The notes under the pieces were generated by a model. The model did not search any database and had not been told where the DNA came from. It saw only the letters and a list, made by a program, of their open reading frames with translations. Below are positions 52,716 to 64,000 of a DNA stretch of 64,000 nucleotides, in pieces (position 1 is the first letter of the stretch; every line of letters starts with the position of its first letter). The translations under genes were made by a program, and so were the position numbers. Origin of the DNA: Marinigracilibium pacificum (GTDB lineage Bacteria; Bacteroidota; Bacteroidia; Cytophagales; Cyclobacteriaceae); NCBI RefSeq assembly GCF_012926615.1, contig NZ_JABBNU010000012.1:1-64000 (forward strand), in the 5' to 3' direction.

Positions 52716-52740
52716 AAAGCGGCTCAGGCCGCTTTTTTTA
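52716..52740. terminator. Bidirectional terminator between a beta-barrel gene and comM
   Basis: AAAGCGGC (52716-52723) and GCCGCTTT (52728-52735) form a perfect 8-bp stem around a TCAG loop, followed by T on the plus strand. It serves the plus-strand beta-barrel gene and can also end the minus-strand comM remnant, whose TAA stop lies at 52738-52740. Confidence 0.8.
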
Positions 52741-53426
52741 TGTTGTTACTCCCATCATTTTATCAAGAGAACGGTATTGAATAGCCTCGGCAAGGTGAGT
52801 AGGTAAAATATCCTTGCTTTCCTCGAGGTCAGCTATTGTTCTGGCTACTTTTAAGATCCTATCATAAGCTCTTGCAGAAAGACCTAGTCGCTCCATTGCT
52901 GTTTTTAGTAATTGCTTACCATCTTCATCAACATTACACATTTTTTTAATCAGCTGTGATGGCATCATTGCATTATTATGGATCCCTTCCATATCCTTGA
53001 ACCTTTCCAGTTGAATCATCCTTGCATTAATGACTCTTTCCCTGATCGAAGAACTGCTTTCGGCCTTTCTACGGGCGGTCATCTGGTCAAACGAAACTGG
53101 TGTTACTTCAATATGGATATCAATCCGGTCGAGCAATGGACCACTAACTTTATTAAGGTATCGCTGAACTGCCATCTCAGAGTCCGGGTGGTTTTCTTCA
53201 GGGTTGTAGAAATCACCGGAAGGGCTAGGGTTCATTGAAGCTATTAACATGATGTTAGCAGGAAAATCAACAGTTGCCTTGGCCCGGGATATTGTTACTG
53301 CACGTTCTTCCAGTGGTTGCCTCATTACCTCAAGGACAGTTCTTTTAAATTCCGGAAGCTCATCCAGGAAAAGGACGCCGTTATGTGCCAGAGAAATTTC
53401 TCCTGGTTGAGGGTGGCCACCGCCAC
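52738..53426 (-). pseudogene. comM: comM (yifB) 3' fragment, split by a Tn7-like transposon
   Basis: The C-terminal 230-odd codons of ComM, a MCM/Mg-chelatase-like AAA helicase of natural transformation. From 53426 downward the frame reads GGGHPQPGEISLAHNGVLFLDELPEF, with Walker B (VLFLDE), followed by EVMRQPLEERAVTISRA and ASMNPSPSG, RYLNKVSGPLLDRIDIHIE, and the C-terminal ARAYDRILKVARTIADLE helicase lid. Upstream of 53427 the homology ends at the transposon. The fragment lacks Walker A and the N-terminal Lon-like domain, which should lie beyond the distal transposon end, outside the window. No start codon precedes Walker B in frame, and any protein made from the ATG at 53325 would lack ATP binding. 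Confidence 0.9.
53422..53426. other. Candidate 5-bp target-site duplication in comM
   Basis: GCCAC lies directly outside the TGT terminus at 53427 and inside comM. If Tn7-like, a second copy should border the distal end beyond 64000. The same stretch contains ACCGC (53419-53423), which I recall as the duplication of AbaR-type islands in comM, so the exact break may be within a few bases. Confidence 0.45.
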
Positions 53427-53545
53427 TGTTAAATTCAAAAGTAAATAATAAAAAACTTAATCCATTAACACTTTTTACAAAAGTAGTTGCAAAAGCTGCC
53501 TTTGTAAATGGTGGGATTCCATATAAAAATTACAAAAGATGTTGC
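53427..53545. repeat. Transposon right end with three TnsB-site-like repeats
   Basis: Three imperfect direct repeats follow the TGT terminus: TTCAAAAGTAAATAA at 53434-53448, TTACAAAAGTAGTTGC at 53475-53490, and TTACAAAAGATGTTGC at 53530-53545. The last overlaps the tnsA start codon (53539). Spacing of about 41 and 55 bp and the shared ACAAAAG core fit transposase binding sites at a Tn7-type end. Identification rests on pattern only. Confidence 0.5.
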
Positions 53546-54222
53546 TAATATTTAAAAAACGAGTTCGCGAGATAGGAAATAGACACAGATCTCTATCTGG
53601 TTTTATTTCAAGTGAAAAAATTAATAAGGATGTCGTTTTTGAATCTTCCTTAGAGCGTGACTTTATAATTCTACAAGAATTTAATGATGCGGTATCTTGT
53701 TATTTAGAACAACCATTTAAAGTCAAACTAGCTAATGATTTATCATACACCCCAGATTTTATTATAGAATATTTTGATGAATCTCCTGAGGTTGTGGAAA
53801 TTAAATATAGTGATGATCCATTGCTAAAGGATAAAAAGTATTTGGAAAAACTAGATTTAATGAGGGAATTCTGCAAAAAGAATGATTTTAGATTCAGTTT
53901 ATATACAGATGTCGACATACGAGTATTGAATGATGAATATCTTAATAATTTGATGCATCTAATAAATTATCGAAATATCTACTCGTTTGATATTTATTCG
54001 CAGGATCAAATGAATAAAATGAAAAGAAAGATGTCCAAAATTCTTGACTTTTTGGTGGATGAAGGTGAAATGACGATAAAAAATCTTCTGTTTAAGTTAA
54101 AATTACTAGAGGAGTATCCCGGTGAATTATTATTTTACTTATGGTATCTTATTGCAAATAGATTTATTTCTTGCGATTTGCACTCGAAAATAAATTATGA
54201 CACTAAAATATGGAAAGACTAA
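53539..54222 (+). CDS. tnsA: TnsA-like endonuclease
   Basis: A 227-aa TnsA-type restriction-like endonuclease that cuts the 5' strands at transposon ends, allowing cut-and-paste. The core is FESSLERDFIILQEF (Glu35/Glu39), YLEQPFKV, LSYTPDFIIEY (Asp73) and VVEIKY (Glu87, Lys89), the E/D/ExK arrangement of the family; the C-terminal half (about 130-227) is the DNA/TnsC-contact winged-helix region by family analogy. The start ATG overlaps a repeat of the right end, so TnsB binding could repress the operon. The stop overlaps the tnsB start by 13 bp. Confidence 0.88.
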   Translation: MLLIFKKRVREIGNRHRSLSGFISSEKINKDVVFESSLERDFIILQEFNDAVSCYLEQPFKVKLANDLSYTPDFIIEYFDESPEVVEIKYSDDPLLKDKKYLEKLDLMREFCKKNDFRFSLYTDVDIRVLNDEYLNNLMHLINYRNIYSFDIYSQDQMNKMKRKMSKILDFLVDEGEMTIKNLLFKLKLLEEYPGELLFYLWYLIANRFISCDLHSKINYDTKIWKD

Positions 54223-56075
54223 ATATATATAAAGGTGCCAAAGTTAGTTTTAGAAATAAGCCTGCCATAATATTAAGGATAATCAATTTAGAAGAAGTTA
54301 CCATTGAAGAAGTTGATTCTTCTGTAATCCGGACCGTTCATTTGTCTGAATTAGCTTCAATTTCTAAAGAAAATAATATAAGTGAATCATCCACACCAAT
54401 TGATTTATTATCAGAAAAAAGGTCAATTATGGCTAAAAAAAGGTTTAATATAATTGAACCAATATTATCCGATAGACAGAACTTTTCATTGATTAAAGAA
54501 ATAGCTGAAAAACATAATGTTCACTTTACCACTATATATCGGTGGATTAAAATTTATGATAATTCAAAGACTATTTCTTCATTAGCCGGAAAAGTGCGAA
54601 GTGGGGGGAGAGGAAAATCAAGACTTGCAATTCATGTTGATGAAATAATAAAAGATGCTGTTGAAGAATTGTATTTGAGAAGTTCAAAGAAATCAATAAA
54701 TAGAGTAATTAGAAAAGTGATTTCTGAATGCAAACGATTAGAATATGATCCTCCCCATCCCAATACGATAAGGAATAGAATAAAGTCTGTTCCAGCTGAA
54801 GTAAAAATCAGGAAAAGACACGGAGCGTCAGCTCATAGAGATAAATTTCAACCAATAAAAGGTTCTTTTCCTGGAGCTGATTTCCCATTATCAATAGTTC
54901 AAATCGACCATACCAAGCTTGATGTGATTTTGGTAGATGAACATTATCGGAAGCCCTATTTAAGGCCTTGGATAACAGTTGCTATAGATGTGTATAGTAG
55001 AATGGTTTTAGGGTTTTATTTAAGTTTTGATCCACCTGGTGAAATTGGTACAGGTATGTGCATTGCAAAGAGCATTTTGCCAAAAGAAAAATGGTTGCAA
55101 AAATATAACCTTAAAACAACTTGGCCATGTTGGGGAATAATGAAAACAATTCATTTGGATAATGCAAAGGAATTTAAAGGAAAAATGCTAAAAAATGCTT
55201 GTGAAAATTATGGAATTAATGTGAGTTATCGGCCAGTTAAACGACCGAATTGGGGAGGTCATGTTGAAAGACTATTAGGGACATTATCTAAAGAGATTCA
55301 TGATTTACCAGGCACAACTTTTTCAGACCCTAAGTTACGTGAGAATTATAATTCTGAAAAGAATGCTGCATTAACCATTTCTGAATTGGAAAAGTGGTTA
55401 TTAATGTATATCACTGAAATTTACCATAAGAGAATACATAGTAGTATTCGATGCTCTCCAATTGAAAAATTTGAAGAAGGAATATTGGGTACAGAAAATA
55501 AAATAGGAGTAGGTCATTATCCTAGAATAAAAAATGAAAGAAGACTAATTTTAGACTTCATGCCATTTTTCGAACGGACTATTCAAGAATACGGGGTAGT
55601 AATTGACCATATTCATTATTATGATGAAGTATTAAGACGATATATTCATTCTGAAAAAAATGGATTAAAACGAAAGTTTATATTTAAAAGAGACCCTCGT
55701 GATATCAGTACCATATATTTTTATGATCCAGAATTTGAGGAATATTTTGATATTCCATATCGGGATACTTCAAATCCACCAATATCAGTATGGGAATACA
55801 ATTCAATTATTAAGTCCTTGGATCAGCAAAGAATAGATATTGATGAGGCTAAAATTTTTGAAGCTTATTCTTTAATGGAAGAAATCGAGCTTGAAGCAAT
55901 AAAGCAAACCAAACGATTGAAAAGAACCTCGCGATATGCTGATAAGCGGGATATAATAAATGCTGAAATAGAAAAAGAGAATGAGCCAGAGGAGAAAATT
56001 AGTTTATCAAATTTTGCTAAAAAACGTGATATAAAACCATTTGACGATATTGATTATGGATCATTTAAACTCTAA
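54210..56075 (+). CDS. tnsB: TnsB/TniA-like DDE transposase
   Basis: A 621-aa transposase that binds the ends and performs strand transfer. After an N-terminal domain and an HTH (IAEKHNVHFTTIYRWIKIY, about 99-117), the rve integrase core shows Asp233 in VQIDHTKLDV, Asp317 in IHLDNAKEF and Glu353 in HVERLLGTL, with exactly 35 residues between the last two. The Mu-type C-terminal domain follows. Overlaps with tnsA (13 bp) and tnsC (20 bp) show one polycistron. Length is slightly shorter than Tn7 TnsB and near TniA. Confidence 0.93.
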   Translation: MERLNIYKGAKVSFRNKPAIILRIINLEEVTIEEVDSSVIRTVHLSELASISKENNISESSTPIDLLSEKRSIMAKKRFNIIEPILSDRQNFSLIKEIAEKHNVHFTTIYRWIKIYDNSKTISSLAGKVRSGGRGKSRLAIHVDEIIKDAVEELYLRSSKKSINRVIRKVISECKRLEYDPPHPNTIRNRIKSVPAEVKIRKRHGASAHRDKFQPIKGSFPGADFPLSIVQIDHTKLDVILVDEHYRKPYLRPWITVAIDVYSRMVLGFYLSFDPPGEIGTGMCIAKSILPKEKWLQKYNLKTTWPCWGIMKTIHLDNAKEFKGKMLKNACENYGINVSYRPVKRPNWGGHVERLLGTLSKEIHDLPGTTFSDPKLRENYNSEKNAALTISELEKWLLMYITEIYHKRIHSSIRCSPIEKFEEGILGTENKIGVGHYPRIKNERRLILDFMPFFERTIQEYGVVIDHIHYYDEVLRRYIHSEKNGLKRKFIFKRDPRDISTIYFYDPEFEEYFDIPYRDTSNPPISVWEYNSIIKSLDQQRIDIDEAKIFEAYSLMEEIELEAIKQTKRLKRTSRYADKRDIINAEIEKENEPEEKISLSNFAKKRDIKPFDDIDYGSFKL

Positions 56076-56943
56076 GTTAATTGAATTTGTAAGAAAGGCA
56101 AGTGATCAGGAAAGGATTGAGTCGATTAGACAAAGTCATTGGATTGGTTATCCGGTAGCAAAATCGATATTAAAAGGATTAAATGATTTATTAAATTATC
56201 CTCAGGTGCATCGAATGCCCAATTTGCTATTGGTAGGTGATTCAAATAATGGTAAAACGGCCTTATTAAATCAATTTGGTCAATATCATCAATCATTTTT
56301 AAATAAAGAGACAGGTGAGTTAATTGTACCTGTTGTTCTAATTCAATCGCCACCGGAACCAGATGAAAAGCGCTTTTATAATTCAATATTAGAAACACTT
56401 TATGCACCCTACAAAACTTCTGAGAATGCAGAAAGAAGACAACAACGAGTCATCCACTTGTTAAGGAAGTTAAATACAAAATTATTAATTATAGATGAGA
56501 TACATCATATTCTAGCTGGGACTATCGGGAAACAAAGAACGTTTTTAAATGTAATAAAATATTTATCCAATGAGTTAAGGATTTCAATAGTGGGGGCAGG
56601 AACAAAAGATGCATTTAATGCTATTCAAACTGACCCACAGTTAGCTAACAGATTTATTCCTAAAGTATTACCTAAATGGACTAATGATGAAGATTTTCTA
56701 AGGTTGCTGTTGAGTTTTGAAACAGCTCTACCATTAAAGAAACCTTCAAATTTAATAGAAGGAAGCCTAAGTCAAAAGATTTTGTATATGAGTGAGGGCT
56801 TAATAGGTGAAATTTCAGCTATTCTAGAATTAGCCTCTATTTTAGCCATAGAATCAAAAATTGAAAAGATTAATTCAAATGTATTAGATAACATAATATA
56901 TATCAGGCCTTCAGATCGTAAAAAAATGATTCACCGGTTATGA
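56056..56943 (+). CDS. tnsC: TnsC/TniB-like AAA+ regulator
   Basis: A 295-aa AAA+ ATPase. The ATG at 56056 is chosen over the TTG at 56041, which lies five codons earlier. Walker A is RMPNLLLVGDSNNGKT (Gly61-Thr68), the very pattern of TniB-type proteins; Walker B is KLLIIDEIHHI (Asp147). TnsC-like proteins receive the signal from TniQ and activate the transposase at the chosen target. Size and motif spacing fit TniB rather than the 555-aa TnsC of Tn7. Coupled to tniQ by ATGA. Confidence 0.92.
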   Translation: MDHLNSKLIEFVRKASDQERIESIRQSHWIGYPVAKSILKGLNDLLNYPQVHRMPNLLLVGDSNNGKTALLNQFGQYHQSFLNKETGELIVPVVLIQSPPEPDEKRFYNSILETLYAPYKTSENAERRQQRVIHLLRKLNTKLLIIDEIHHILAGTIGKQRTFLNVIKYLSNELRISIVGAGTKDAFNAIQTDPQLANRFIPKVLPKWTNDEDFLRLLLSFETALPLKKPSNLIEGSLSQKILYMSEGLIGEISAILELASILAIESKIEKINSNVLDNIIYIRPSDRKKMIHRL

Positions 56944-57941
56944 ATTTCAATAATCCAAATAGAATTTGGCCAGGGTTTATTCCTCCGGAGGAAAATGAAT
57001 TATTTTCTAGTTGGCTAATGCGTTTAGCTAAAGAACACCATACAAAAACGTATACATTTAGTAAGTTTTATTTTGGCAATATGCCTATATGGAATCGTGA
57101 TATTGATTCACTTACATCAAAACCAATAATTGATCAAATTTTGAAGCATACTGTTTTGACAATTAACCAAGTCAAAAAGATGTTCCTTAGCTCATATAAT
57201 GAAAAATTATGTTATTATTTTAATGCAAATGGCTATTCTCCTGGAATATTAAATTTGGGTTTATATCATCGAAAGCGAATTAATAAAGGGTTGGTATGTT
57301 GCCCAAATTGCTTAAGACAAAATATTCCTTATTATAGGAAGGAATGGAGATTAGTTACTTCAATAATATGTTTAAAATGTAAATGTCATTTAATTGATCA
57401 CTGTCCAGAATGTGGAGCGGGTATTGCATTCCATCGGCTAGAATCAGGGTACAAAGAAGATGTGTTAAGGTACCCACTTAATTCTTGTTGGCAATGTAAA
57501 AGTAGTTTATGTGAAGATATTACCTGGGTAAAAAGTGAGGACTTAATTAAATATCAAACCTTTTTTAATCAAACAATAGAATTTGGATATAATAAATATT
57601 GTTCATATTCATTTTTGTATTTTCCGATATACTTATCATTAGTTCAAAAGCTCTTTTCCAGTTCAAGTATTTTTAAAAAATATCAAGATGCAATTGGATA
57701 TGAAATGAACGAAGAATTGTGTTTAGAAAAAGGTATAAATGTCCATAATTCTACTTTAGAGCAACGATTGCCAGCATTAATTGGGGTTTATCGTATAATG
57801 GATAATTGGCCAAATAATTTCATAATATTTAGAAAGAAATATCAAATTGGAAGGTGCTACCTAACCAAAGATATCAATTTATCATGTTGTGTTAACGCAA
57901 TACCGTATTGGTATGAATTAGGTTTTCAAGACTCTATTTAA
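56940..57941 (+). CDS. tniQ: TniQ/TnsD-like target-selection protein
   Basis: A 333-aa TniQ-domain protein. PPEENELFSSWLMRLAKEHHT is the opening TniQ motif; zinc-binding cysteines occur as CCPNC (120-124), CLKCKC (144-149) and CPEC (155-158), with a further CWQC about 187. In a Tn7-like element such a protein binds a conserved host gene; since this element sits in comM, TniQ probably reads comM sequence near the right end. It ends 24 bp past the stop of the convergent TnsE-like gene. The length is shorter than TnsD of Tn7 (508 aa). Confidence 0.88.
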   Translation: MNFNNPNRIWPGFIPPEENELFSSWLMRLAKEHHTKTYTFSKFYFGNMPIWNRDIDSLTSKPIIDQILKHTVLTINQVKKMFLSSYNEKLCYYFNANGYSPGILNLGLYHRKRINKGLVCCPNCLRQNIPYYRKEWRLVTSIICLKCKCHLIDHCPECGAGIAFHRLESGYKEDVLRYPLNSCWQCKSSLCEDITWVKSEDLIKYQTFFNQTIEFGYNKYCSYSFLYFPIYLSLVQKLFSSSSIFKKYQDAIGYEMNEELCLEKGINVHNSTLEQRLPALIGVYRIMDNWPNNFIIFRKKYQIGRCYLTKDINLSCCVNAIPYWYELGFQDSI

Positions 57942-59579
57942 TTTTTTATCTATTTTTTTTATTGTGTGATTTACTATTTCATCAATTGTTGAGTGCCCCA
58001 TAGTTTGATGTTTTATTGATTGGACAAATTTGACTTGGTGTTTATATAAATATGGGTCCTTCTTATCGTATATATTCACCCAATTGATTCTATCTTGTGC
58101 AATTGACCTTGTAATATTATAAATGTTTAAGCTGTCAATAGGGAAAAAATTGATATTGTGTAAAATGCCAGTAAATCCTTTTTGAAATTCAATCAAATAA
58201 AAATTTTTGTCTTTAAATACAATATGTATGGTGTAAAAGGAGTATTCAACGTTATCGATTATAATTCGATCTGGAGTTGGTTGATCAATTTCTTTTATTT
58301 TTACGAATTCAGCTTGATATTCTTTTATTTGATTCAGGTTATCGTTTAACAACTTGAGGTATTCATATCTGTTATAACTACTTATATTTTTATCGTTTTC
58401 TATTATCAATTGCTGAGAATTATTGTTTGAATCTTTATTTATATCTAATGAGAAATTATCAATGTCAATTTCTAGCGGAATCTTCTTGGTAGATATATTA
58501 TTTTCTTCAGCCAAATTTTTAATGAATTCAACTGGGATTTCATGCTCTGGTAACGGTTGCTGAAGTTTGACCTTCTTTGAGTTAATCAGACTGTTACTAT
58601 TTGTAGGCTCAGAAGTGATTTTGATAATTTTTTCTGGATCCTTTTTGTTTCCTTGTTTTTTTTCTCCAGAATTAGCTTTAGGTTTTCTCTTAGTTTGAGA
58701 TTTATATTTTGGAAGAATATTAATTCTATCAACTAAAATTGATTTTGCTACATTTTCATCACTAATAATATCATAAACTAGGAATAGCTTTCTGTTAGAT
58801 TGTTTTATAAATTTCCCTCTTACATTTAACAAACATTCATTATATGGCAAAAAAGAATTTAAATAGGTATTTAAATTACCGGTATTGATAAGCGTTTTTC
58901 TCAAATTAGACCCAATCATTGAAAGTGCTTGTTTTCCTAAATCATCTTTTGAGAAAAAATATGGTGCAAATGTTTTAATTGTATGTTTTTGAATAATTGA
59001 ATTATCATACAAAACTTCTCCAACTTTCTCTTCATTTTCAGTTAATGGGGGAGTAGACTCAATTATATCTGAAATTCTATTTTCAATAATGTACTGAGGA
59101 AATTGTGAATCTAGAAAAAAGTAGTATTTACAAATTGTATGAATTGGTAAAATGGCGGTATATTCATTAAAAACTGGATGCTCCCCATAAAACTTATAAT
59201 ATTTAAAACCTTCTGTATTATCCGGAAATGGATATTTTGTGTTTTCATCCAATTCTAAAGGCTTGGACGTAGCTTTATATCTGTTTGGGACATAAATTCT
59301 TAGTTTATAAGGATTCTCATATTGAGCAGGAACAGTTACCAATTCTCCATTATCATTAAAGATTGTTCCAATTGTCAGAAAATGTAAAAAGTTGACAGGG
59401 AGTAATAACTTGATTTGATGACCTAAATTGAAATCACTTATTTTATCTGAATTTTTAAATGAATTAGTGAAATAAAACTCATTCAGATATGCTCTTTCTT
59501 TATAAACCGTTTTGCCTATCCAGGATAGAAACCACCATTTTCCCTCACTATTAGGAAACCTTAATTGTATATCATTCAT
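57918..59579 (-). CDS. Divergent TnsE-like protein, inverted relative to the tns operon
   Basis: A 553-aa protein with no simple family motif. I read it as TnsE-like from layout and local patterns recalled from Tn7 TnsE (about 540 aa): an ILPIHTICKYYFFLDSQF segment (143-160), a LLNVRGKF...LFLVYDI segment (250-271), a Lys/Asn/Ser-rich linker (about 290-345), and a C-terminal domain (about 400-553). TnsE directs Tn7 to replicating or conjugating DNA via the sliding clamp; QIKLLL (55-60) weakly resembles a clamp-binding motif. Gene order (next to tniQ) supports this, but the opposite orientation is unusual. Third gene of the minus-strand operon. It could also be a cargo protein of unknown type. 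Confidence 0.5.
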   Translation of the reverse strand: MNDIQLRFPNSEGKWWFLSWIGKTVYKERAYLNEFYFTNSFKNSDKISDFNLGHQIKLLLPVNFLHFLTIGTIFNDNGELVTVPAQYENPYKLRIYVPNRYKATSKPLELDENTKYPFPDNTEGFKYYKFYGEHPVFNEYTAILPIHTICKYYFFLDSQFPQYIIENRISDIIESTPPLTENEEKVGEVLYDNSIIQKHTIKTFAPYFFSKDDLGKQALSMIGSNLRKTLINTGNLNTYLNSFLPYNECLLNVRGKFIKQSNRKLFLVYDIISDENVAKSILVDRINILPKYKSQTKRKPKANSGEKKQGNKKDPEKIIKITSEPTNSNSLINSKKVKLQQPLPEHEIPVEFIKNLAEENNISTKKIPLEIDIDNFSLDINKDSNNNSQQLIIENDKNISSYNRYEYLKLLNDNLNQIKEYQAEFVKIKEIDQPTPDRIIIDNVEYSFYTIHIVFKDKNFYLIEFQKGFTGILHNINFFPIDSLNIYNITRSIAQDRINWVNIYDKKDPYLYKHQVKFVQSIKHQTMGHSTIDEIVNHTIKKIDKKLNRVLKT

Positions 59580-59635
59580 GTTGATTGGTTGAAGTATTGA
59601 TTAAAAAAATGAGAGACAATTATTATAGGTGGATT

Positions 59636-60193
59636 TTATTCTAATTCACTTAGTAATTTTATTATTTCAGATATTTCATCTTGTTGAAAGTGAGTTTTAA
59701 TCATTTTAACCACACTCTTAGGCTGCTTGGTTGCTTTTATCCTAGGCTTAACAAAGCCGGCCTCAATAATTGCAGCATTAACACTCAATTCCTTCATTTC
59801 AATTTTATGTAATAGATCAGGACGTTCTTTTTCTAATCGCATCAATTGGCGTTGTTTCCCCGTTTTTTTAATTGAAGTATGATGGTCCGTCATACTTTGA
59901 TGGGATTTACCGCTTTCTCCTGTTAATGCTTTTGCTAATTCTAATTCAACTTCTTCATACCCTTTACATAAATCGTTAATGAATTTCCACTCACTCTGAA
60001 GACCCCATGGACGTGGAGCTTCGATAAAGTCAGGAAAAAAATTATATTCTCTAGTTTCCAATAGTCCGCTTTTAGGTTTTCTTATTCTCCACTTATCTTC
60101 TTTTAGAATTCGAAGAATCATATTAGGTACTTCATGTCTACTATAGCTAACATATTCTATTGCCTTTTGAATATTTTCAATTAACTCACTCAT
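59636..60193 (-). CDS. Basic 185-aa protein, possibly DNA-binding
   Basis: A 185-aa protein of unknown family. The C-terminal half (about 105-150) holds a short segment typical of mobile-element proteins, RLEKERPDLLHKIEMKELSVNAAIIEAGF, given here in pieces: RLEKERPDL, then ELSVNAAIIEAGFVKP. It resembles a helix-turn-helix-like or ParB-associated motif. The N-terminal half is mixed. The start overlaps the stop of the helicase gene by 1 bp (TAATG), so it is translationally coupled, and the TnsE-like gene lies 56 bp downstream. Confidence 0.5.
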   Translation of the reverse strand: MSELIENIQKAIEYVSYSRHEVPNMILRILKEDKWRIRKPKSGLLETREYNFFPDFIEAPRPWGLQSEWKFINDLCKGYEEVELELAKALTGESGKSHQSMTDHHTSIKKTGKQRQLMRLEKERPDLLHKIEMKELSVNAAIIEAGFVKPRIKATKQPKSVVKMIKTHFQQDEISEIIKLLSELE

Positions 60194-62103
60194 TATTTTT
60201 TATTCAATTTAAGAAACCATTGTTTACCATATTCAAGTTTTTTAATTAATTGTTCCTCAGTAGCCATATTACTATAAACTACACCTATTCGTTTATTTAA
60301 TTCATTATGTACAAATTTAATTACATCAGGAGTAGGCTTTCCTCTTTTAAGTTTATAGGCAATTTTTCCAACGATATCTTTTATTAGTTTTTTATTGTCT
60401 TGTTTCCTTTCGGTTATGCTTCTAAATTCATGAGGTCTTTCTTCGGGAGTTGATTTTCCTTCCATAATTTTCAACTCCTTCCATGCAGCTAGAATAATAT
60501 CTTTACTTGCACCAATTTTTGCAGCTACCTTTGTAGCAGTAAAGTCTTCATTTGCATCCCAAAAACTTGCATCATAGACATTTCCTGAATCAATACTTTC
60601 TGCTTCTAAAACAATGTCTTCTATTGAAAATAAAGGTGAGCCACCACCGATTCCATTTCTTTTTTCGGTTTCTTCAATAATCTCTTTGTAAATATGAGCG
60701 ATTTCATCTTTTACTAATTGAGCATTTTCCAGAAGAGGTTTGTAGTCAGCCATATAAAAATAGCAAACATCGTGATTATTTTCAAAGTGTTTTGGATTTC
60801 TAACACCTCTTCCCATTACTTGAATAAACCTAACTGTTGTTAAGGTATTACTGGCATAAAGAATGACTCTAATTCTAGGAATGTCGACACCTTCAGAAAC
60901 CATGTTTATACTTATTATCCACGGAACGGTTGAATGTGTGAATTTTTCTATTTTACGACTTGAATCTCGATCATCTGAGGTCACTATCTCAACAAATCCT
61001 GGGCCAAATTCATCATATATACGAGTATAAAGTTTTTCTGCATCAATTATTGAATTACAAACGATTAACCCTGCATAGTTTTCATTTCTAAAATCATTAA
61101 TTTCATTTAATTTTGCATTAGCCTTTATAAAGGATTGATAGACCCAACAATTTCCTTCGGGTTTTACACTAATAATTTGATTATAAAATTTTTTACCATC
61201 TATATCTGGAATTGTATTTTCATCTAGAATTGATGTTCCATCAATAGTTATTGCTGAAGCGCTTTGACGTTGGAAAATTGTAGGGCAAACTTCTTTATCA
61301 TTTACAGCTTGACCATAAGTATATGACATATTAATACCGACAAGCTTAAACTTTTTTATGCCATTCTCTTCAAACTCTTGATAATCTACGAATGGGATTG
61401 GGCTATTATCATTTCGATCCGGAGTCCCAGTTAATAGCAATTTAAAACCGCATAATTCACCAATCCTTTCTATTCCATCTCCCCATGCTTTACTATTACC
61501 AGCATGATGTACCTCATCCACTATCAATAATGTTCGTTCATTAATGAATTGGGTTAATAGTTCAATATTTCTTTCAGTAAGAATTTGATAGGTTATACTT
61601 ATGCCTTGACAATCTCTAGGCCAGTGATGTTTAAACTTATAATCGTGATCAACCCTTATTTTAAAAATCTGTTCCATTTTTGCTGCCCAATTTCTTTTTA
61701 TATTTTCCGTTGGACTAACAATTATTACAGAGTCGAAGTAATTATGACGTAATAAGTAGTTAAATAAATAAGATGCATAGATTGTTTTTCCACTTCCAAC
61801 GCCGGCAACACATAAAAATACAGTGCCTTGTTGATTATGATAAACTTCTTTGAAGCGTTCAAAGCCTTCCCTTTGCCAATTTCTTAATTTTAATTCTTTA
61901 GCCTTCATATTAATTAAGTTTGATTTTCTTTTGTTACAGTCTGGGCATAATGCTTGAGCATTATTCATATTTGTTTCCCCTCCTTTAGAATATGGGATAA
62001 TATGATCTGCCTCCATTTTATCTAATGGTTGCCCACAATTTTTACAAAACTCAGAGATATACAGTAGCGCATGGCGCTGTGAAGTGCTAAAAAACCGGTT
62101 CAT
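60193..62103 (-). CDS. HNH nuclease-SF2 helicase fusion
   Basis: A 636-aa protein. Residues about 20-60 are an HNH domain with zinc-binding CKNC and CPDC and catalytic EADHIIP (His34). An SF2 DEAD-type helicase follows: Walker A GVGSGKT (101-107), IVDEVHHAG (Asp196), LLTGTPDRND, SEGVDIPRIRVI and QVMGRGVRN (motif VI). The C-terminal part (about 480-636) is helical with no recognised domain. Such fusions look like phage-defence or restriction-type effectors, but here the gene leads an operon ending in the TnsE-like gene. Function not established. Confidence 0.8.
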   Translation of the reverse strand: MNRFFSTSQRHALLYISEFCKNCGQPLDKMEADHIIPYSKGGETNMNNAQALCPDCNKRKSNLINMKAKELKLRNWQREGFERFKEVYHNQQGTVFLCVAGVGSGKTIYASYLFNYLLRHNYFDSVIIVSPTENIKRNWAAKMEQIFKIRVDHDYKFKHHWPRDCQGISITYQILTERNIELLTQFINERTLLIVDEVHHAGNSKAWGDGIERIGELCGFKLLLTGTPDRNDNSPIPFVDYQEFEENGIKKFKLVGINMSYTYGQAVNDKEVCPTIFQRQSASAITIDGTSILDENTIPDIDGKKFYNQIISVKPEGNCWVYQSFIKANAKLNEINDFRNENYAGLIVCNSIIDAEKLYTRIYDEFGPGFVEIVTSDDRDSSRKIEKFTHSTVPWIISINMVSEGVDIPRIRVILYASNTLTTVRFIQVMGRGVRNPKHFENNHDVCYFYMADYKPLLENAQLVKDEIAHIYKEIIEETEKRNGIGGGSPLFSIEDIVLEAESIDSGNVYDASFWDANEDFTATKVAAKIGASKDIILAAWKELKIMEGKSTPEERPHEFRSITERKQDNKKLIKDIVGKIAYKLKRGKPTPDVIKFVHNELNKRIGVVYSNMATEEQLIKKLEYGKQWFLKLNKK

Positions 62104-62536
62104 AATAATTCGATTTAATCACCATTCAACTTTACTGTTGACCTTTGATTATCATTAATATAAATAAAAATTTGATTTTGGATAGATTTTTTGATCAATT
62201 ATTTTGTTTTTACTTCAAATTCGATATAAAGTGTGGGTATATCCCAATAGATGAAATATTTTATTTTAATAAATGAATTGGTTAGTCTGGAATTAGGATT
62301 TATTGAATGGTCCATTTAAAGTGTTAAATAAAATTATCTAAACGTAGAATATTTATTTAGCTTTTATTATTACAGTCAACACATATGTGGTAATTATTTG
62401 GTTTTCAATTTTTTGTAAACTTATTATTTCATGGTTTATTCTAGTTTTGGCTTTAAAGTGAAAATAAAATTAGAATTATTGAAACTATTATCGGTATATG
62501 TCGTAAAGGAAATATATGTCCTATTAAAAAAAATAA
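62104..62536. other. Intergenic AT-rich region between divergent cargo genes
   Basis: This stretch separates the helicase operon (minus strand) from the XRE-ImmA gene (plus strand). I find no coding frame beyond short shadows. It contains many AT runs and, at its right, TATGTC half-sites at 62497 and 62515. The control region of the minus-strand operon must lie here, though I could not identify a clear promoter for it. Confidence 0.5.
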
Positions 62537-62594
62537 TTGTATATATAGGACATTTTTATTATGTTTGCTAATAAGATTTTGTTTAATAGACATA
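62497..62594. promoter_or_regulatory. Operator-like repeats upstream of the XRE-ImmA gene
   Basis: TATGTC at 62497-62502 and 62515-62520, and its reverse complement GACATA at 62589-62594, plus a 9-bp inverted repeat ATGTCCTAT (62516-62524) / ATAGGACAT (62545-62553). The repeat straddles the -33 element of the promoter at 62537-62567. An XRE regulator binding here could silence its own gene. Confidence 0.6.
62537..62567 (+). promoter_or_regulatory. Bacteroidota-type promoter for XRE-ImmA
   Basis: TTG at 62537-62539 and TATGTTTG at 62560-62567 match the Bacteroidota consensus (-33 TTG, -7 TAnnTTTG) with a 20-nt spacer. Transcription would begin about 62574, some 58 nt before the ATG at 62632. 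Confidence 0.65.
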
Positions 62595-62631
62595 TTTGGC
62601 AATCTTCTTATTAGTGATAACAAAGAAAGAC

Positions 62632-63738
62632 ATGACAACTAAAGATAATATTGTAGTATTTGCTTCAAATCTTAGCTTGCTAAGAAGGAATGCTGGTTTG
62701 ACTCAAGCTCAATTAGCAGAGAAAATCGAAGTTAGTTCTAAAACAATTAGACGATATGAGAGTGGGGAAGCTTATCCTAATATGAAAGTTGTGTTATCAT
62801 TGTCTTCAAAATTGAAGGTGAAAATCGAAGATTTTTTTAATGAAAACCTAAAGCAACATTTGTTAGAAAATAATTTTTCGATCGTAGATACATATCATCA
62901 TAATCCAAAGTTCAATCTTAATCGAGTTAATTATCGAAGTGGAGTTGATTTACCAAGTGAGTTGACTGATAGTATTAAAAGTGCAACTGTTGATCGGTTA
63001 TTGAAGATTAATGAGCTTTATGATATTCTTAATGTTGATATAAAATTTAATAATCCACTAAAAAATGATAAGCCTATTAAATCAAGAGTTGATGCTGAAA
63101 AGGCAGCAATGAAGGTAAGGAAAAAATGGGGTTTAGGACAAAGTCCAATTGTTTCTGTAATAACTACTTTAGAGAATCATGGTGTTCATGTGATTGATTT
63201 TGATTCACCAGGTGAATTTCAGGGATTGAGTGCCTTTGTCAATGATATTCCAATCATAGTATTGAATAGTTCGGTGTCTGAGACAACCAGAAGAAGGTTT
63301 ACTGCAATGCATGAATTGGGACATTTAGTATTGAATATGGGTGTCGATGACTTTAATGAAATAGAAAATTTTTGTGATGCATTTGCTGCGACAATGTTGA
63401 TGCCCAGAAATTTATTATTGCTTGAACTGGGTGAAAAAAGAACGAGAATTTCAAAAGCTGAGTTAAGGACAATTAAAGAGAAGTATGGGATTTCTGTTCA
63501 AGCATTGTTAGTGGGGGCAGTTTTGTCTGATATTATTTCTTGGGTTCAATATCAGGAGATGAAGAATGAATATTCTTCTGATTTAGGTGAATATCTAGGC
63601 AATGAAAAATCAACACAATTTGAACAGTTTGTGTTTAGAGGTATTGTAGAAGGACATATTTCAAAAGATAAAGCAAAAGAATTATTGGGGATTGGTTATA
63701 AAAAGTTCAAACAAACCTTAGAAAGTGCACTTGGATGA
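62632..63738 (+). CDS. XRE-family regulator fused to ImmA/IrrE metallopeptidase
   Basis: A 368-aa fusion. Residues about 10-65 form an XRE helix-turn-helix (NLSLLRRNAGLTQAQLAEKIEVSSKTIRRYESGEAYP, in pieces). The C-terminal ImmA/IrrE domain carries HELGH (His227-His231), the zinc-protease HExxH. Such fusions act as antitoxin or phage-repressor-type regulators cut or cutting under stress. The ATG at 62632 is chosen, not the TTG at 62596, which lies among the operator repeats. The stop overlaps the next gene as ATGA, a typical toxin-antitoxin-like coupling. Confidence 0.85.
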   Translation: MTTKDNIVVFASNLSLLRRNAGLTQAQLAEKIEVSSKTIRRYESGEAYPNMKVVLSLSSKLKVKIEDFFNENLKQHLLENNFSIVDTYHHNPKFNLNRVNYRSGVDLPSELTDSIKSATVDRLLKINELYDILNVDIKFNNPLKNDKPIKSRVDAEKAAMKVRKKWGLGQSPIVSVITTLENHGVHVIDFDSPGEFQGLSAFVNDIPIIVLNSSVSETTRRRFTAMHELGHLVLNMGVDDFNEIENFCDAFAATMLMPRNLLLLELGEKRTRISKAELRTIKEKYGISVQALLVGAVLSDIISWVQYQEMKNEYSSDLGEYLGNEKSTQFEQFVFRGIVEGHISKDKAKELLGIGYKKFKQTLESALG

Positions 63739-64000
63739 TTGAGATTGTAGTTAACGATATTGATTTACTATTAAAACTTCGAAAGGGAGGATTTCTTTCA
63801 GAAGATCATAATTTTAAATTTATAGTACATCAAAATAAATGGGAAAAATCTGATAGAATTGATCAGTTGTACTTAGACCCTTATATCAATAAGGGTATTA
63901 TTTTGATTGATGAATGTGATAGGATGAATATTTCAGAGGTGTTTATTTTATCGGATAAATATAGTCTATTAAAATATACCATTTCTGACTTTATGTCAAT
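63735..64000 (+). CDS. PIN-like protein, cut by the window edge
   Basis: The first 88 codons are visible. The start overlaps the XRE-ImmA stop (ATGA). IEIVVNDIDLLLKLRKGGFL at the start, followed by DLYLDPYINKGIIL-like spacing and ISEVFILSDKYSLLKYTISDF, resembles PIN-domain toxins, in which an early Asp and a later Asp in a helix form the metal site. With the XRE-ImmA partner this looks like a toxin-antitoxin or defence pair, but the gene is incomplete and the call is tentative. Confidence 0.5.
   Translation, partial: MIEIVVNDIDLLLKLRKGGFLSEDHNFKFIVHQNKWEKSDRIDQLYLDPYINKGIILIDECDRMNISEVFILSDKYSLLKYTISDFMS

Follow-up and report, generated by a model that had tools for sequence, protein, structure and literature searches.

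Locus and ends of the element

The window analysed here is a stretch of 64,000 nucleotides (nt) from Marinigracilibium pacificum (G000:C4:1-64000), part of a 4.96-Mb draft genome in 37 contigs, and it contains the left part of a Tn7-like transposon that interrupts the comM gene. The comM-borne element measures 29,121 base pairs (bp), about 29 kb, and its far end lies beyond the 64-kb window. An initial annotation of the window had described a Tn7-like element inside comM of a Bacteroidota genome, with tnsA, tnsB, tnsC and tniQ in that order; both ends and both halves of comM were indeed found, and Pfam supported the gene order and the families, with hits above cut-off for TnsA, TniB and TniQ. 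The features of the insertion and of its transposition module are the following.

52738-53426, minus strand: comM 3' half, from Walker B to the C terminus, the disrupted target
53427-53548, plus strand: left (L) transposon end, terminal TGTTAAATTCAAAAG, with TnsB-site-like repeats at about 53432-53451, 53474-53493 and 53529-53548
53539-54222, plus strand: tnsA, with the E/D/E-x-K catalytic positions retained in the alignment (Pfam PF08722 and PF08721; 2.7e-12 and 3.7e-08)
54210-56075, plus strand: tnsB, transposase (Pfam Mu-transpos_C above cut-off and rve below cut-off; homologs)
56041-56943, plus strand: tnsC, TniB-type AAA+ ATPase (Pfam PF05621, 8.1e-73; alignment)
56940-57941, plus strand: tniQ, 333 amino acids (aa), proposed comM target selector (Pfam PF06527, 3.1e-15; AlphaFold2; natural swap)
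57918-59579, minus strand: tnsE-like gene, 553 aa, convergent with tniQ (family distribution; AlphaFold2 model)
C4:82548-83224, minus strand, outside the window: comM 5' half

The comM 3' half reads GGGHPQPGEISLAHNGVLFLDELPEF..., resuming inside the Gly codons of VGGGG. Reading of the junction confirmed that it stops at 53426, in the Gly-rich codons just before Walker B, and that the L terminus, TGTTAAATTCAAAAG, follows immediately at 53427 with its TGT. The right (R) terminus, TGTCAATTACAAAAG, was found in inverted orientation at C4:82547, adjoining the comM 5' half, so that the distal end and the missing gene half were both recovered where the initial annotation had suggested looking for them, beyond position 64000. 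The 5' half was located by a ChlI-domain search (match at C4:82802-83167, 29 kb downstream) and ends at nt 677, in the Walker A motif GPPGSG. A pattern built from both ends had exactly two matches in the 4.96-Mb genome, one per strand, at these termini, and its reversed control had 0. Three repeats of 20-22 bp were observed at each end, spaced at the left end and nearly abutting at the right end outside the window; by their position and repetition they are candidate TnsB sites. TGT...ACA ends with repeat arrays, together with tnsA, tnsB, tnsC and tniQ encoded together in that order, are characteristic of Tn7-like transposons, and the positions retained in TnsA are those that we take to be its catalytic motif. 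The element is thus an ordinary Tn7-like transposon in its parts; it is new in two respects, namely its homing to comM without a detectable TnsF and the frequency with which target DNA is lost beside one end.

Together, the two comM halves fall short of a complete gene. They correspond to residues 1-227 and 285-507 of an intact relative, and the 58 residues between them are absent, which amounts to about 176 nt including the broken codons, as measured on that relative. A search of the genome with a 59-residue query for the missing piece returned no significant match (best E 0.7). The 5-bp target duplication that is the usual trace of an insertion is also absent, with GCCAC on the left flank and CCTGA on the right. 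A simple insertion with a GCCAC or ACCGC duplication, splitting comM into two complementary halves, was therefore rejected; the differing flanks and the missing piece indicate an insertion plus loss of target DNA. Loss of ComM function in this strain, which the initial annotation had thought probable, is likely, because the gene is in two pieces and Walker A has lost its Lys-Thr. A Cys-to-Ser change in the 3' half (NPSPSG for NPCPCG) was considered as a sign of decay and dropped, because the intact comM genes of L156 and L227 also have NPSPSG. Errors of assembly are hardly credible as the source of the gap and the split: the genome is a draft in 37 contigs, but both junctions lie with exact ends on one 189-kb contig, and the pattern recurs in other assemblies.

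Recurrent insertion in comM and the choice of site

TniQ was present in nine of 390 genomes of the order, and seven of these nine carried an element in comM. Four of the insertions lie at about codon 287 (the M. pacificum genome, G310, G357, in which the element is inverted, and G300, which has a second TniQ at a contig end), two at codon 365 (G249 and G345), and one at about codon 85 (G019, on two contigs). The comM 3' half was detected in 365 of the 390 genomes. A wider survey was based on a TnsC profile scan of GTDB genomes, from which 80 of at least 450 confirmed loci were kept, 29 of them from Bacteroidota. A piece of comM lay beside the element in 25 of these 29 loci, broken nearly always in the same glycine codons, and the hosts among the surveyed loci included Aquimarina, Tenacibaculum, Chryseobacterium, Ancylomarina, Marinifilum, Paludibacter, Mucilaginibacter, Hymenobacter and Marivirga. 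In the family of Chryseobacterium, which we take to be Weeksellaceae, TnsC was found in 27 of 320 genomes and comM was broken in 26 of the 27, with a 3' half starting at codon 276-287 in 25; G403 has lost DNA on both sides of the element, the L-side loss reaching codon 442, and G602 retains only a decayed TnsC, with comM intact. The identical comM site was also occupied in four proteobacterial loci among those listed (L121, L128, L132 and L133). Among proteobacterial sister elements (L085 and others), comM was split in three of ten hosts searched, and in L085 and L100 the split position does not fit the element found there. Measured for 34 insertions in several genera, the distance from the L end to the same QPGE codons, which follow it in comM, is 12-21 nt in 33 and 2 nt in the last, G409. 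One comM site is thus used recurrently across Bacteroidota, which agrees with the widespread comM-targeting lineage that had been proposed.

Other arrangements were also observed in comM. Two Tn7-like elements share a single comM in G416 (L297-L301, contig C83): one lies at codon 85, with the duplication TGCCC, and the other at codon 287; the outer element has tniQ and the tnsE-like gene at the opposite end from tnsABC. In G383 (L060), G342 (L065) and G347 (L066-L067), comM is interrupted by tyrosine-recombinase elements, identified by Pfam with the recombinase near one edge, and imperfect duplications of about 20 bp were seen by eye at the Walker A or NPCPCG codons. In this order, therefore, elements of several kinds insert into comM. 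Such interruptions would be expected if comM were dispensable or its loss useful and insertion otherwise untargeted, but this is a highly improbable account of the Tn7-like insertions, given how nearly constant the distance between the L end and the QPGE codons is.

Several candidate factors were considered for the selection of comM. The AlphaFold2 model of TniQ has a pLDDT of 87, and its best PDB matches are TniQ and TnsD structures. With a TnsF query from an Acinetobacter Tn6022-type locus, no homolog was found in the element or its relatives except at two Acinetobacter Tn6022-type loci, in a search that covered the loci before L297, most survey loci extending 10 kb on each side of tnsC; a match was recorded at L295, and L151 gave one weak zinc-finger match. 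Accordingly, no TnsF, with its zinc fingers and tyrosine-recombinase-like domains, was found next to tniQ in the element. The initial annotation had likened the insertion to Tn6022/AbaR elements, and the likeness holds in that some proteobacterial elements occupy the same glycine codons; it fails for TnsF. It is very unlikely that the element is of the Tn6022/AbaR type and uses TnsF. The gene, TnsABC-TniQ and a TnsE-like gene on the opposite strand are shared with Tn6022 as it is described in PMC10293859, but besides the missing TnsF homolog, Tn6022-type proteins occupy a long branch of the TnsB-TnsC-TniQ tree (rooted there by choice, and built without L137 and the loci lacking any of the three proteins).

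An RNA guide was rejected as selector, none having been found in the element. No 30-nt match of the two comM halves was detected in it at 7 or fewer mismatches, nor any CRISPR-like repeat, and no cas family appeared among the 20 element open reading frames (ORFs) scanned with Pfam, a set that includes some of the small ORFs. In PADLOC the HNH-helicase cargo protein matched Cas3 and DinG helicase models weakly, with PbeA ranked above them. The combination that marks a CRISPR-associated transposon (CAST), a Cas effector with a guide matching the target, was thus not found.

The tnsE-like family was found in 35 of 38 genomes of the element set, the others being G300, G407 and G391 (the last read in part). 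Sequence profiles against Pfam and PDB gave almost nothing for this protein, and its identification therefore rests on the structure model: the seven best PDB hits of the AlphaFold2 model (pLDDT 72) are all the TnsE C-terminal domain (E 0.011-0.097, probability 0.90-0.99). A TnsE-like protein, as in Tn6022, is accordingly predicted with medium confidence.

A natural swap of tniQ bears on these candidates. G345 and G249 are both inserted at codon 365, with duplications TGTGC and ATGCG, respectively, and G300 is inserted at codon 287. The TniQ of G345 is 75% identical to that of G249 and 46% to that of G300, whereas its TnsB (46% and 59%) and TnsC (49% and 64%) are closer to G300. Trees gave the same picture: G345 groups with G300 and L137 for TnsB plus TnsC and with G249 for TniQ, both with support 1.0. 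The TnsE proteins of G345 and G249 share 26% identity over 278 residues, and no TnsE was detected in G300, which speaks against TnsE as the site selector. In this swap the site goes with tniQ and not with tnsB, tnsC or tnsE; TniQ therefore probably sets the comM insertion site, a conclusion with one swap as its basis, which also makes the idea directly testable.

Loss of comM DNA at the right end

Both junctions were read for 38 insertions at the codon-287 site, that of M. pacificum included; for G409 and G406 the two junctions are on different contigs. An exact 5-bp duplication was found in 18 of the 38 (G357, G310, G300, G444, G544, G408, G396, G435, G451, G399, G495, G448, G541, G406, G391, G410, G568 and the inner inverted element of G416). 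In 19, comM DNA was missing right up to the R end (M. pacificum, G515, G519, G393, G499, G402, G403, G404, G477, G395, G518, G397, G400, G394, G411, G407, G401, G390 and G409), and one junction, in G478, was ambiguous. G398 and G405 were left out of the 38, no comM 5' half having been found in them; they may have lost it completely. In the truncated cases the comM 5' half ends at the R-end TGT at comM nt 182-805, instead of about 857-866, and all 19 endpoints are inside comM, 55-678 bp from the usual site. The last nine nt before the TGT match the comM of an intact relative at eight or nine positions in 16 of the 19. The other three, M. pacificum (six of nine), G409 (six) and G401 (four), have no close relative in the set, and their protein alignments reach the junction.

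Comparisons between elements provide information on when these losses arose. In five of seven pairs compared, the transposition modules are 94-97% alike and the comM genes 76-81%; in the other two (G395/G397 and G393/G499), the values are 88-89% and 78-84%. A 15-kb alignment of G395 with G518, which takes in the comM 3' half, shows 96% identity; their comM halves are 79-80% identical and the endpoints lie at 755 and 626. For G515 and G519 the module is 97% and comM 76-77% identical, with endpoints at 608 and 740, and for G444 and G400 (97% and 80-81%), one insertion is duplication-flanked and the other is cut at 689. Near-identical modules in diverged comM genes indicate that the elements entered these hosts separately and that the losses were separate, and separate entry of near-identical elements in turn suggests that the loss came with or soon after insertion. 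The abutment of comM on the terminal TGT points to the transposase as the cause. By analogy with insertion sequence (IS) elements, the R-side losses are most likely adjacent deletions made by the transposase; in one possible route, an end would pair with an end on the sister copy and insert into nearby comM DNA. Eleven of the 19 endpoints fall in one reading frame, a weak bias.

Truncation was more frequent in the clade of the M. pacificum element (17 of 23) than outside it (2 of 13; Fisher p 0.0014, in a test that ignores relatedness, counts G478 as not truncated, leaves out G568 and G416, and places G409 outside the clade though it is absent from the TnsB-TnsC-TniQ tree). Loss of TnsA was rejected as the cause of the R-side losses, since the catalytic positions are kept in 15 of the 19 truncated elements and TnsA-dead or TnsA-less elements occur in both classes (truncated G400, G515, G519 and G407; duplication-flanked G399, G444 and G408). 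In a Chryseobacterium subclade (L255, L256, L267, L268 and L269, in G515, G519, G400, G444 and G399), the best TnsA-like ORF aligns without the catalytic Glu and Lys, and these near-identical elements in diverged hosts may represent a group that is naturally TnsA-dead. No TnsA gene was detected in the Marinifilum and Mucilaginibacter elements L274 (G407) and L277 (G408).

Two other histories would leave similar junctions. The DNA could be lost during insertion itself, if TniQ sets the place where the L end is joined and the R end, not bound to a 5-bp stagger, is joined up to about 680 bp upstream. The position of all 19 endpoints inside comM, within 678 bp of the usual site, agrees with this, as do several recent insertions of near-identical elements that are all truncated. 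However, close relatives give exact 5-bp duplications (G444 beside G400, G544 beside G394), so that a concerted join is possible for them, and the local range of endpoints is partly due to counting only cases with a 5' half, none having been found in G398 and G405; we regard this course as rather unlikely. Alternatively, two elements may have occupied one comM, and homologous recombination removed one copy and the comM DNA between them, leaving the outer ends. Double occupancy does exist, at codons 85 and 287 of G416, but this history is improbable: it requires first insertions at many 5' positions, duplication-flanked insertions were seen only at codons of about 85, 287 and 365, and none was found at any of the 19 endpoints.

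Taken as a whole, we consider it likely that a Tn7-like transposon homes to comM by means of TniQ and that the transposase removes R-side DNA later or during insertion. The target would be the Val-Gly-Gly-Gly-Gly codons just upstream of the comM Walker B. TniQ itself, and not TnsF, a guide RNA or TnsE, would recognise comM and load TnsC, and TnsAB would then insert the element at the TniQ-set site with a 5-bp duplication. The TnsE-like protein may act in a second pathway directed at plasmids, like the one proposed for Tn7 and Tn6022. Later or during insertion, in the M. pacificum copy and in half of the insertions read, the transposase would rejoin the R end further upstream in comM, removing the intervening DNA, here about 176 nt, together with the target duplication. 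We put forward only tentatively that the transposition chemistry of this lineage regularly produces such a deletion, at insertion or shortly afterwards, rather than by accident, with TniQ alone homing on the other side; if true, comM could never be restored by precise excision and the element would erode its target on one side.

Several observations weigh against this account. Two of the nine TniQ genomes of the order (G144 and G065) have an intact comM, and four of the 29 Bacteroidota loci (L077, L096, L127 and L137) are not in comM, which is intact elsewhere. A single clear swap supports TniQ as selector, and in it the TnsA of G345 sides with TniQ (48% to G249, 42% to G300); the codon-85 elements (G019 and the outer element of G416), mutually nearest in TnsB, TnsC and TniQ, agree with the selector role but have all genes in common. 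The TniQ here is short (333 aa), and PMC10293859 describes a small TniQ as characteristic of elements that use an additional selector; a host-encoded partner elsewhere may assist TniQ. The guide comparison covered only the two comM halves, and the TnsE identification comes from a mid-confidence model (pLDDT 72, best E 0.011).

Cargo and comparison with known systems

Downstream of the tnsE-like gene, the window contains the first cargo genes.

59636-60193, minus strand: ORF of 185 aa, with no Pfam or PADLOC family; cargo
60193-62103, minus strand: HNH and DEAD/ResIII helicase protein (Pfam, PADLOC); cargo, defence-like
62596-63738, plus strand: HTH and M78 peptidase protein, RmrA-like in PADLOC; cargo
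63735-64000, plus strand: start of a 138-aa ORF that continues past the window; cargo

Further cargo comprises multiubiquitin-E2 and E1-type ThiF proteins, a resolvase, two nucleotidyltransferase-like proteins, a deaminase matching PADLOC dCTPase (2.5e-159), a DUF6035/CoiA-like nuclease and a large secreted esterase-like protein. The multiubiquitin-E2 fusion and the E1/ThiF protein form a ubiquitin-like defence-type pair at L005:12499-14480. Defence-rich cargo is common for Tn7-like elements according to PMC8649781. In addition, a small lipoprotein-like cargo gene resembles, by eye, a gene just beyond the element on the comM 5' side (L006:1280-1804 and L006:14474-15043), and the cargo may include DNA acquired from this host.

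In the open-access literature, where comM was a noisy search term, no publication was noticed that describes a Tn7-like element targeting comM in Bacteroidota or a Tn7-like element making adjacent deletions. Among Tn7-like transposons, clade 3 of Benler et al. (2021) contains Tn6022, Tn5053, V-K CASTs and Bacteroidetes elements, and the passages of PMC8649781 on these Bacteroidetes members name no comM target for them. Adjacent deletions of IS elements, such as IS150 in the Lenski experiment, resemble the R-side losses in that the end is kept, no duplication is present and flanking DNA is lost, and such deletions are reported to often grow over time (PMC11708052). Those are IS elements, whereas here a Tn7-like element with TnsA is involved, and the losses in 19 of the 38 insertions would be the first sign, in the open-access literature, that a Tn7-like element possessing TnsA regularly causes adjacent deletions.

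As a target, comM is known from three other systems in the accounts of PMC10293859 and PMC11406308: Tn6022 via TnsF, Tsy elements and a CRISPR-guided I-B1 element. Tsy tyrosine-recombinase transposons share the target (PMC10293859) and differ in having their own recombination enzyme and no transposase of the TnsB kind. A type I-B1 CAST has, like the element here, a single TniQ and comM as chromosomal attachment site, and a comM-directed guide RNA is known in it, according to PMC11406308; in contrast, the M. pacificum element has neither a guide matching the two comM halves nor a CRISPR-like repeat. Tn6022/AbaR elements (TnsABC-TniQ-TnsF, TnsE) have the same core genes, the same target and a TnsE-like gene on the opposite strand (PMC10293859, PMC11406308), and Tn6022 reaches comM via TnsF, which is described as binding the Walker B region (PMC10293859). 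The element here differs from them in that no TnsF was found, TniQ appears to set the site, target DNA is frequently lost at the R end and its position in the tree is distant; because TnsF was found neither in the element nor in its relatives, it is not of the Tn6022/AbaR type in the strict sense. If a lineage spread across Bacteroidota does reach comM by means of a short TniQ, with no TnsF detectable, it would represent a further solution to targeting this gene.

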